From positions 1,981,615 to 2,045,614 of the forward strand of contig NZ_AZUQ01000001.1 of assembly GCF_000527155.1 (NCBI RefSeq): DNA of 64,000 nucleotides, given 5' to 3'. Shown one piece after another: positions 37,497 through 40,133 of the stretch; position 1 is the first letter of the stretch, and each line of letters opens with the position of its first letter. The DNA comes from Haloglycomyces albus DSM 45210. Lineage in GTDB: Bacteria; Actinomycetota; Actinomycetes; Mycobacteriales; Micromonosporaceae. The notes below the pieces were generated by a model. That model saw nothing but the letters and a program-made list of their open reading frames with translations, ran no database searches and was not told the origin of the DNA. The position numbers and the translations under genes were made by a program.

Positions 37497-39623
37497 TCAG
37501 CGTTCGTCGGTGAGGCGCAATACGTTACCGATCAGACGCAGTCCCGAGGCGCGCTCGGACGTCAGGATGGATTCGGGGTGGAATTGCACGCCGTACCATC
37601 CGCGCATGGGGTCCTCAATCGACATGGCGATGTCGTCGAGGGCCGAAGTGGTGACGAATCCGCCTTGTACCTGGTCGATGGTGGCGTGGAGCGAATGGTA
37701 GCGGGCCGTGGTGAGCCGATCGCCCACGTCGGAGAAGAGTCCGCCTCCGAACACTTTGACGTTGCCGGGTTTTCCGTGGGCGGGTTCGTCTAGAAGCGAT
37801 AGCTTTCCGCCGGTGTACTCCACCATCGCCTGCAAGCCGAGGCAGACGCCGAAGACCGGCAGCTCGCGACGTTCCAAATCCCGCAGTAGAGCCTGACAGG
37901 CAAAGTCCGTCGGGCGTCCCGGTCCCGGAGACAGCACGACCAGGTCCGGATTGATGTCGTCCAGCGCCTGTCCCAGATCGAAACCGTATCGCAGCGTCGT
38001 GACCTCGGCATCGTGCTGGCGGAAATAATCGGCCAGGGTATTGACGAAGGAATCCTCGTGGTCGATGAGCAGCACACGTCGGCCGGTACCCGCCGCTCCG
38101 CCGGCCACATCAATGGCCGCCGGGGGTTCGGGCCGCATCCGGTGTTTTCCTTCGGCCGCCTCGAGCAGGGCACTGGCCTTCAGGAACGTTTCCGCCTCCT
38201 CCATGTCCGGATCGGAGTAATAGAGCAGGGTGGCACCGGCCCGGACACTTGTCAGTCCGTCCCGGATATGAGCGGTGCGCAAGGTAAGACCGGTGTTCAT
38301 GGAGCCGTCGAAACCGACGTAGCCGACGGCCCCTCCATACCAGCGGCGTGGCGTCGTCTCGTTCCGCTCGATGAATCGCATGGCCCAGGTCTTGGGAGCA
38401 CCGGTGACCGTTACCGCCCACATGTGGGTCAGGAACGCGTCGAAGGCGTCCATGTCCTCGCGTAGCCGCCCCTCGATGTGGTCGACGGTGTGAATCAGGT
38501 GAGAGTACAGCTCGATCTGACGTCGCCCGATCACGCGAACGGACCCGGGGACACAGACCCGTGCCTTGTCGTTGCGGTCGACGTCGGTGCACATGGTCAG
38601 CTCGGCCTCTTCCTTCTCGGAGTTCAGCAGAGACAGGATCTGTCCGGCGTCCTGGAGGGGATCGTTGCCACGTGCGATGGTTCCCGAAATCGGGCAGGTC
38701 TCCACACGGTTGCCGTTGACCCGCACGAACATTTCCGGCGAGGTGCCCACCAAGTACTCGTCGTGTCCGAGGTTGAAGAAGAACTCGTACGGTGAGGGGT
38801 TGGACTTCTTCAGACGTTCGTAGAACGATGCGGGGGAATCGCAGGTGGTGTACATTTCGTGGCCGGGGACGACTTCGAAGAGGTTCCCCTCGCGGAACTC
38901 CTCCTTGGCCTGCCGTACGACCTCTGAATACGCGCCCGGTGTCGGCCCCGCCGGAACCTCCTCGGCAGGTCGGTAATCGAAGTGTTCGCCCGTGCGTTCC
39001 AGTCCGACGGTGGACGCGCCGTCCACCTCGAAGTCATAGCGGTACAGGCTCGCCGTTTCCCGTTTCCTGTCCACGACGTACACCTCATCGGCCAGATGCA
39101 ATACCGCGTCGCGTACGTCCGACGGTCGCTCCTTGGCGAACTCGATCGGTTCGAACTGGTAGGCGAGATCGTAACCGAACGCGCCCCACAACCCCAGGTA
39201 AGGGTCCTCGCATCCAAAGGCCGACACAATGGCCCGCAACGCGGTGAACACCGTCAACTGTCGGGAACGTTGTTCTTCGGTCACCACACCGGGATCGGTG
39301 GGAACCTCGATCGACACTGCATCGCCCTCGACCTTAACCGGGGCTACCTGGGACAAAGCGTGTTCAAAGACCGGCAGGACGACCTGGCCGCGTTCGTTCA
39401 AAGCCTGGGCGGTAACCGTGCGCCCGCTGACGACGACTTCGGCGGCCGGATTGACATAGGCCAGGTGGAAACGTGAATAACGTCCCGGGTACTCCATTCC
39501 CGAGGAGAGCACGCCGCCGCGGCGAGACTCGACCAGTTCGGAAATATAGTCCAGGTCGTCGGTGTTGAGAGTGGCGGCGGTGCGGGTGATGCGCGCTCCG
39601 CCCGCAGTGGTGTAGACGGTCAT
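37497..39623 (-). CDS. trpE: fused anthranilate synthase TrpEG
   Basis: 708 residues. Chorismate-binding TrpE domain (about 1-510, with VGTSPEMFVRV, CPISGTIARG, TVTGAPKTWAMRFI) joined to a glutamine amidotransferase TrpG domain (about 525-708, nucleophile Cys in FGVCLGLQAMVEY, His in FHPESILT). It makes anthranilate, the first step of tryptophan synthesis. ATG 39623 follows AAGGAG. Its leader holds a Trp-Trp-Trp peptide and an attenuator. No other trp genes are in the window. A phenazine-type PhzE is structurally similar, but the Trp leader argues for TrpEG. Confidence 0.94.
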   Translation of the reverse strand: MTVYTTAGGARITRTAATLNTDDLDYISELVESRRGGVLSSGMEYPGRYSRFHLAYVNPAAEVVVSGRTVTAQALNERGQVVLPVFEHALSQVAPVKVEGDAVSIEVPTDPGVVTEEQRSRQLTVFTALRAIVSAFGCEDPYLGLWGAFGYDLAYQFEPIEFAKERPSDVRDAVLHLADEVYVVDRKRETASLYRYDFEVDGASTVGLERTGEHFDYRPAEEVPAGPTPGAYSEVVRQAKEEFREGNLFEVVPGHEMYTTCDSPASFYERLKKSNPSPYEFFFNLGHDEYLVGTSPEMFVRVNGNRVETCPISGTIARGNDPLQDAGQILSLLNSEKEEAELTMCTDVDRNDKARVCVPGSVRVIGRRQIELYSHLIHTVDHIEGRLREDMDAFDAFLTHMWAVTVTGAPKTWAMRFIERNETTPRRWYGGAVGYVGFDGSMNTGLTLRTAHIRDGLTSVRAGATLLYYSDPDMEEAETFLKASALLEAAEGKHRMRPEPPAAIDVAGGAAGTGRRVLLIDHEDSFVNTLADYFRQHDAEVTTLRYGFDLGQALDDINPDLVVLSPGPGRPTDFACQALLRDLERRELPVFGVCLGLQAMVEYTGGKLSLLDEPAHGKPGNVKVFGGGLFSDVGDRLTTARYHSLHATIDQVQGGFVTTSALDDIAMSIEDPMRGWYGVQFHPESILTSERASGLRLIGNVLRLTDER

Positions 39624-39679
39624 GGCCTGAGGCTCCTTATTATTTGAGAACCGCCTGGGAGCCGTGGCCGAGATACACG

Positions 39680-39711
39680 CACAGCGACCGCCCCCCCAGG
39701 CGGTCGCTGTG
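39680..39711 (-). terminator. trp attenuator terminator hairpin
   Basis: Perfect 13-bp stem (arms 39699-39711 and 39680-39692) with a 6-nt loop, between the Trp leader peptide and trpEG. Its 5' arm can pair instead with GGCGGCGCTG at 39742-39733 (one bulged A), giving a mutually exclusive antiterminator. There is no T-run, so it might act with Rho or at translation. Confidence 0.65.
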
Positions 39712-39742
39712 CTGTGTGTTCGCAGAACCAAGCAGCGCCGCC

Positions 39743-39781
39743 TCAGCGACGCCACCACCAGTTGAATGCGAACGTTGTCAT
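39743..39781 (-). CDS. trpL: tryptophan leader peptide (uORF)
   Basis: 12 codons reading MTTFAFNWWWRR. Three consecutive Trp codons are the mark of a trp leader peptide. It ends 32 nt before the attenuator hairpin and about 120 nt before trpEG. TAGCAT lies 7 nt before its ATG, so the mRNA is probably leaderless here. Stalling at the Trp codons when charged tRNA-Trp is scarce would favour the antiterminator. Confidence 0.88.
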   Translation of the reverse strand: MTTFAFNWWWRR

Positions 39782-39788
39782 GACAGCG

Positions 39789-39794
39789 ATGCTA
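39789..39794 (-). promoter_or_regulatory. -10 box TAGCAT of the trpL-trpEG transcript
   Basis: TAGCAT ends 7 nt before the trpL ATG at 39781, which suits a leaderless leader-peptide mRNA. Confidence 0.45.
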
Positions 39795-39912
39795 CCCGGT
39801 CCGAGTGCTGAGATCACCTCGGGTGGAGGCATTGTTTTTGTGGCGCTGCCGACAGTTCGTTGTTCGGGGCAAGACGCGGCAATGGGAGTTTCGTCTTTTC
39901 CCGTCGACGCGC

Positions 39913-39920: not shown

Positions 39921-40133
39921 ATAGCGAACGACGTTGACCCGGCCATCACCGGCGAGTCTCCGGAAGAACGGGCCACGGCCTCAGTAGAACCGGACGGGAC
40001 GGCCCGTTACAGCCCCGAACGAGAGGACGCACGACTTGGAAGGTCGTGACGTCAAGCGAGGTGGTACCGCGGGTACAGCCACTCGTCCTCGCACACCCAG
40101 GTGTCAACCAGAACTATCCGGTGTGTACGAGGA
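39921..40133 (+). ncRNA. T-box riboswitch (Ile), translational type, before ileS
   Basis: Ultrashort stem I with the Ile specifier ATC at 39945-39947 in GGCCATCACCGG, then CCGGAAGAACGG, then the stem II region CAGTAGAACCGGACGGG (39982-39998), and the T-box bulge GAGGTGGTACCGCGGG (40058-40073), all as in actinobacterial ileS T-boxes. The 3' strand TCCTCGCACAC (40086-40096) can pair either upstream in the T-box stem or with GTGTGTACGAGGA (40121-40133), which contains the ileS ribosome binding site. Uncharged tRNA-Ile should therefore free translation. Confidence 0.92.

Follow-up and report, generated by a model that had tools for sequence, protein, structure and literature searches.

A predicted leaderless, ribosome-mediated attenuator of trpEG in Haloglycomyces albus and its actinobacterial relatives

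Described trp attenuators and the trpEG locus

In the trp attenuator of Escherichia coli the position of the ribosome at the Trp codons chooses between the 2:3 and 3:4 pairings of the leader RNA. The same choice is proposed here for a leader preceding trpEG in Haloglycomyces albus DSM 45210, within a 64-kb stretch of DNA that was analysed as a whole and is referred to as the window. E. coli trpL has a ribosome-binding site within its 5' untranslated region, together with a long U tract, and in these features the window is unlike it.

Attenuators of the trp operons of Streptomyces and Corynebacterium were predicted in 2005 (PMC1262725), and that of Streptomyces venezuelae has been studied experimentally, according to the citations in PMC1262725 and PMC4833913. 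Both leaders of Streptomyces lividans, trpL1 and trpL2, are reported to be leaderless (PMC8079986). The first of these (MFAHSTRNWWWTAHPAAH), located before trpE, is the same kind of leaderless Trp-Trp-Trp leader with alternative hairpins as that of the window (PMC8079986), and in S. lividans (trpL1) and S. venezuelae, as here, an anthranilate synthase gene lies downstream. The peptides end differently, trpL1 in WWWTAHPAAH and the window's in WWWRR, and the gene behind the sampled trpL1-type leader (L160) falls far below the TrpE-clade3 cut-off. The leaders of Corynebacterium glutamicum and C. diphtheriae (MTNMNAHNWWWRA; PMC1262725, PMC5784534) share a WWWR-type peptide and alternative structures with the window, but the genes under their control form an entire trp operon, not a single trpEG; for that of C. 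diphtheriae no start site has been identified (PMC1262725, PMC5784534). In Sinorhizobium meliloti trpL is leaderless, with its 5' end at the ATG, and attenuation is established (PMC7298713). The rnTrpL/trpL of this organism resembles the window in its WWW, in a stop codon immediately followed by GGCGGC, in a GCCGCC/GGCGGC terminator and in a fused trpEG; it differs in having a strong T run (PMC7298713).

The H. albus locus lies on the minus strand, and its features are, in the direction of transcription:

39812..39817 (-), tentative -35-like hexamer GTGATC, separated from the -10 box by 17 nt; a partial match to the preference of the relatives
39789..39794 (-), -10 box TAGCAT; TAnnnT precedes the leader start by 6 or 7 nt in 79 of 79 scored relatives
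39743..39781 (-), trpL leader ORF of 12 codons (MTTFAFNWWWRR-stop), predicted to be leaderless; peptides of relatives nearly all end in WW(W)RR(x)
39767..39773 (-), helix 0, 5' strand (GUUCGCA; mRNA nt 9-15); complementary to the linker also in relatives of wholly different sequence
39746..39756 (-), segment 1, containing two Trp codons and the Arg-Arg codons; core CGYCGC:GCGGCG paired in 98.9% of alignment cells
39731..39742 (-), segment 2, GGCGGCGCTGCT; its partner is segment 1 or segment 3
39718..39724 (-), helix 0, 3' strand (UGCGAAC), within the linker; complementary to the 5' end of the mRNA
39699..39712 (-), segment 3, 5' arm of the terminator; the antiterminator with segment 2 uses 39709-39699
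39679..39692 (-), segment 4, 3' arm of the terminator; in relatives it covaries with segment 3, with G-C replacing A-U
39669..39678 (-), weak tail containing U, GUGUAUCUCG; U at four of its 10 positions
39633..39638 (-), Shine-Dalgarno sequence AAGGAG of trpEG, assigned from the sequence
37497..39623 (-), trpEG, fused anthranilate synthase, assigned by NCBIfam and Pfam matches

The leader begins with ATG 39781-39779, 7 nt 3' of TAGCAT (39794-39789), continues through its Trp codons (39760-39752) and ends with TGA (39745-39743); direct reading of the sequence confirmed the 12-codon Trp frame and its distance from the TAGCAT box, both of which had been proposed in an earlier sequence-only reading of this DNA. 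The ATG of trpEG follows 119 nt 3' of the trpL stop. Its product scored 939 bits against NCBIfam TIGR01815 (cut-off 739) and 1032 bits against NF010081, and contains the Pfam domains Anth_synt_I_N, Chorismate_bind and GATase. The trpEG frame is open upstream, across the terminator, as far as a GTG at 39758 within the Trp codons (39758-39624, -); this extension was interpreted as one of the frames that stay open by chance in GC-rich DNA, and because of it automatic annotation may place the start of trpEG too early.

Pairing, conservation and ribosome position

The terminator hairpin (39712-39699 / 39692-39679) consists of 14 perfect Watson-Crick pairs, with four more past a bulged A; no other perfect short-loop hairpin of the 64-kb window is as long. 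The sequence-only reading had thus been right about a perfect hairpin, the length of which is 14 rather than 13 bp. It had also proposed that the 5' arm pairs alternatively with 39742-39733 (GGCGGCGCTG), and this too holds: GGCGG+CGCTG pairs with CAGCG-A-CCGCC (39709-39699) in an antiterminator of 10 bp with one bulge. Two further helices were missing from its list, an 11-bp 1:2 hairpin (39756-39746 / 39741-39731) and helix 0 (39773-39767 / 39724-39718). The whole leader folds with a z of -5.4 relative to shuffled sequence. With a ribosome stalled at codon 8 or 9 the window's RNA folds into the 2:3 form (-21.1 kcal/mol), and with a ribosome at the stop codon into the 3:4 form. No Rfam family reached its gathering score on the trpEG strand, no trp leader model matched the window, and no T-box or other riboswitch was found on that strand, the sole T-box-like match being on the opposite strand, before ileS.

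In a GC-rich genome hairpins are common, and one might come to lie beside a short ORF by chance. The window contains one leaderless-type short ORF with WW, for which dinucleotide shuffles of the window (n=60) gave 0.12 per 64 kb, and in none of the 60 was such an ORF followed by a hairpin of at least 10 bp. The combination is moreover conserved in about 80 species, by which a chance origin, to which we assign a negligible probability, is refuted.

The genome containing the window is 3.54 Mb in size, and the TrpEG tree groups its copy with those of Glycomyces and Stackebrandtia. Among 41 related genomes, the window's included, the leader is present at all five trpEG copies of at least 64% identity and at none of the four more distant full-length copies (50-54% identity). 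A wider sample comprised 80 named GTDB trpEG loci from Glycomyces, Actinomadura, Nonomuraea, Nocardiopsis and others. In nearly all of the 80, TAnnnT stands 6 or 7 nt before an ATG or GTG that opens a peptide ending in WW(W)RR, often with one residue more, and GGCGG lies at or just past the stop codon. The arrangement before approximately 80 actinobacterial trpEG genes is the same: no Shine-Dalgarno sequence, ...WW(W)RR-stop, and then GGCGGC. Conservation of the Trp codons and of the pairings, which the earlier reading had named as a check, extends to about 80 loci.

The distance between the -10 box and the leader start is 6 nt in 39 and 7 nt in 40 of the 79 leaders, in a search whose pattern itself required TAnnnT 5-7 nt upstream of the leader start, and SD-like 4-mers precede three of 79 leader starts vs 46 of 79 trpEG starts. 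Relatives also show a weak preference for TTGnC 24-20 nt before the -10 box. Because of the TAnnnT spacing and the near-absence of Shine-Dalgarno sequences, a leaderless start of trpL is a probable and conserved prediction. This supports the earlier suggestion of a leaderless leader peptide, for which the spacing of 6 or 7 nt in 79/79 and the SD-like 4-mers in 3/79 speak. The further view that the leaderless start and the missing T run are what deserve study is weaker, given the precedents in PMC8079986, PMC7298713 and PMC12207403.

Structural conservation was scored on 45 aligned leaders (A3), many of the rows being close relatives. For terminator 3:4, 95% of cells are paired, and one column pair of this stem (109-129) reads A-U in 26 of the 45 rows and G-C in another 18. 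The 1:2 pairing is found in 98.9% and the antiterminator 2:3 in 98.7% of cells, and among these 45 leaders neither displays double changes; both pairings depend on segment 2. Alignment and folding were anchored on the core of segments 2 and 3, which hardly varies, leaving 2:3 without covariation of its own. The search for covariation suggested by the sequence-only reading thus has a divided outcome, 3:4 covarying and 2:3 being conserved without it.

The geometry of translation was modelled at 74 loci with an assumed downstream ribosome footprint of 15 nt. In all 74 the core of segment 2 stays exposed whichever Trp codon occupies the ribosomal A site, and all five of its bases are covered once the ribosome stands at the stop codon. 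The remaining free RNA folds as 2:3 at 74/74 loci when the ribosome is stalled on a Trp codon and at 0/74 when it is at the stop. The coverage result is independent of the anchoring, the folding result partly dependent on it. The sequence and its comparison with relatives establish the parts of the leader, their conservation, the mutually exclusive pairings and this geometry. The "complete attenuation logic" claimed from the sequence is borne out by conservation, pairing and ribosome geometry in about 80 relatives.

We consider it highly probable (approximately 90%), on sequence comparison and modelling, that the locus is a ribosome-mediated transcription attenuator of trpEG acting on a leaderless mRNA. 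From sequence comparison and RNA folding, on which the analysis is based throughout, we infer the start site, the act of termination, the response to Trp and the part played by helix 0. RNA polymerase would start at or beside the A of the ATG at 39781, with a 70S ribosome then loading on the 5'-terminal AUG of trpL. With charged tRNA-Trp scarce, the ribosome would stall on codons 8-10 and mask segment 1, leaving segment 2 free to pair with segment 3 while segment 4 has yet to be transcribed, with readthrough into trpEG. With Trp plentiful, it would reach the stop codon and cover segment 2, the 3:4 terminator would form, and transcription would end near 39680-39670. Were no ribosome loaded, helix 0 and 1:2 would make one long 5' hairpin holding segment 2, and 3:4 would form.

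Of 395 genomes of the class, 138 contain the element according to a covariance model trained on actinobacterial leaders (R1), which matched the genome of the window once. The matches of R1 precede trpEG, trpS and other anthranilate-synthase-like genes. A leaderless Trp leader with helix 0 was observed before trpS of other actinobacteria at loci L157, L158, L167, L174, L177 and L185, where trpS was identified by NCBIfam for L167 and L177 and by the look of the protein start for L157, L158, L174 and L185. The leaders MTRLQQQWWRRL and MTRTQQQWWCRL (L170:572-1420 (+), and L190) also precede a gene, which in L170 has no NCBIfam match at the threshold used.

The same model matched the trpEG leaders of S. 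meliloti, Shinella and two Rhizobium (L117, L118, L120, L124) over its full length, with E values of 2e-6 to 3e-8 (about 3e-8 for S. meliloti), and gave no match at the other six trpEG records fetched from plasmids. In the reverse direction, Rfam RF02552 RcsR1, which we take to be the rhizobial rnTrpL, gave the window 17.2 bits, below its gathering score of 60. In the TrpEG tree the actinobacterial and rhizobial leader-bearing groups are not sisters, and between them are weakly placed, long branches that lack a leader; a common origin of the trpEG-attenuator unit was considered, and the tree does not discriminate among shared descent, transfer and convergence. Since the actinobacterial model recognises the same anatomy in rhizobia, and the rhizobial products act in trans (PMC7298713), it might be supposed that the leader RNA and peptide likewise act in trans, as do Sinorhizobium rnTrpL and peTrpL, and that this instead of attenuation explains the conservation. 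The variable N-terminal codons, however, track RNA pairing and not peptide sequence, and the WW(W)RR end fits both the ribosome geometry and the 1:2 stem, which makes the explanation very improbable.

Termination and the tail of the hairpin

The longest T run after the stem in the window is 1, as the sequence-only reading had noted in reporting no T-run, though four of the first 10 nt are T. Counted over 12 nt after the canonical stem core (GGCGGYC), T occurs four times in the window, the seventh lowest of 74, where the median of relatives is six. Because relatives are T-rich at positions 2-4 after this core (70-77%), the U tract of the leader family is, as judged from the sequences, short and interrupted. 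A weak tail has precedents, in that S. lividans trpL2 lacks a U-rich stretch (PMC8079986).

The weak U tail of the window would also suit Rho-dependent termination, with access altered by stalled or absent ribosomes and 3:4 serving as a pause site or as a 3'-end stop for exonucleases; Rho-dependent ends are thought to be commoner in GC-rich actinomycetes (PMC12207403). Against this, T is kept at about 70-77% at positions 2-4 after GGCGGYC in relatives, 3:4 is highly conserved and covaries, and 3-4 U in 10 nt were found by Term-seq to be normal for intrinsic terminators of Streptomyces (PMC12207403). Dependence on Rho is unlikely by this evidence.

Translational control might operate in addition, through a stem (GGCC..GGCUCC 39669-39658 / GGAGCC..GGCC 39636-39624) hiding the Shine-Dalgarno sequence of trpEG. 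This stem folds in the window, and several close relatives have some stem before the start, but sequence, position and pairing partner vary among relatives, no link to segments 1-4 was found, and the Shine-Dalgarno sequence lies about 40 nt past the terminator. Such control is improbable, and the stem (39669-39624), present in the window and inconsistent among relatives, was rejected as a candidate.

Helix 0 and the reach of the leader family

Over approximately its first 20 nt, the leaderless mRNA is complementary to the linker that immediately follows segment 2. In the Streptosporangiales this helix often begins at nt 1 (AUGCGAA/UUCGCAU), and in Actinomadura it takes the form UGCGAACCG/CGGUUCGUG. 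Across 73 loci its duplex energy averages -13.2 kcal/mol vs -10.95 (sd 0.26) with linkers exchanged among species. An independent set was provided by 36 leaders, mostly from families outside the training set, found by R1, which contained 1:2 and 3:4 and no helix 0; here the means are -14.3 vs -10.9 (sd 0.38), and no permutation among 200 did as well. In 21 dereplicated leaders drawn from both sets, 0/1000 permutations reached the observed complementarity. Within the window's clade, where peptide length is constant, seven positions (nt 10-13 and 15-17) show compensatory change, each with two different Watson-Crick pairs and with both sides changed. That helix 0 is kept by compensatory changes in this clade and in distant orders is well supported by these sequence comparisons. 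In rhizobia it amounts to 6 bp in S. meliloti and Shinella and is weak in the two Rhizobium. We found no published description of it in the literature searched, which was mostly non-subscription, and make no claim of priority; the alignments in PMC1262725 span the Trp codons to the terminator, with the 5' strand of helix 0 outside them.

Helix 0 encloses 1:2, and so makes a longer protector hairpin of it. At the 73 trpEG loci the mean pairing probability of the start codon is 0.66 vs 0.35 in shuffles, and the start codon is mostly paired in 70% vs 24%. The window is an exception (0.06), helix 0 being placed just downstream of the AUG; the AUG is predicted to be unpaired, and helix 0 (nt 9-15) falls within the expected footprint of an initiating ribosome. 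Tentatively, and with the odds rather against it, helix 0 may be a loading gate, closing the 5' end, often with the AUG, once about 60-65 nt have been made. If pairing with the linker closes the 5' end, the ribosome would have to load earlier, and we propose that each transcript could then be read at most once.

Divergent from trpEG in the window is ileS (ATG 40142), with a candidate T-box leader at 39925-40093 (+) that matches RF00230 with 47.2 bits (gathering score 93; E 5e-9). A divergent ileS beside trpEG is kept in Glycomyces and Candidatus Stackebrandtia, at 10 of the 18 loci tested. With its T-box divergent from the trpEG attenuator, the region would hold two RNA-based amino-acid sensors back to back.

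As compared with the described systems, the trpEG leader is by its sequence an ordinary member of a known switch type, to which helix 0 adds a conserved feature. If the gate is true, the attenuator would respond both to the charging of tRNA-Trp and to the availability of ribosomes that can initiate on leaderless mRNA. It would then offer a concrete test of how a ribosome requiring a free 5' end stays abreast of RNA polymerase during attenuation; where the attenuator has a ribosome-binding site, this problem does not arise in the same form. The anatomy is one that no Rfam model reports for the window at gathering score. The known Trp switch is extended to the Glycomycetaceae, and a single anatomy, consisting of a leaderless start, WW(W)RR-stop, GGCGGC and a terminator, is common to many actinobacterial families.
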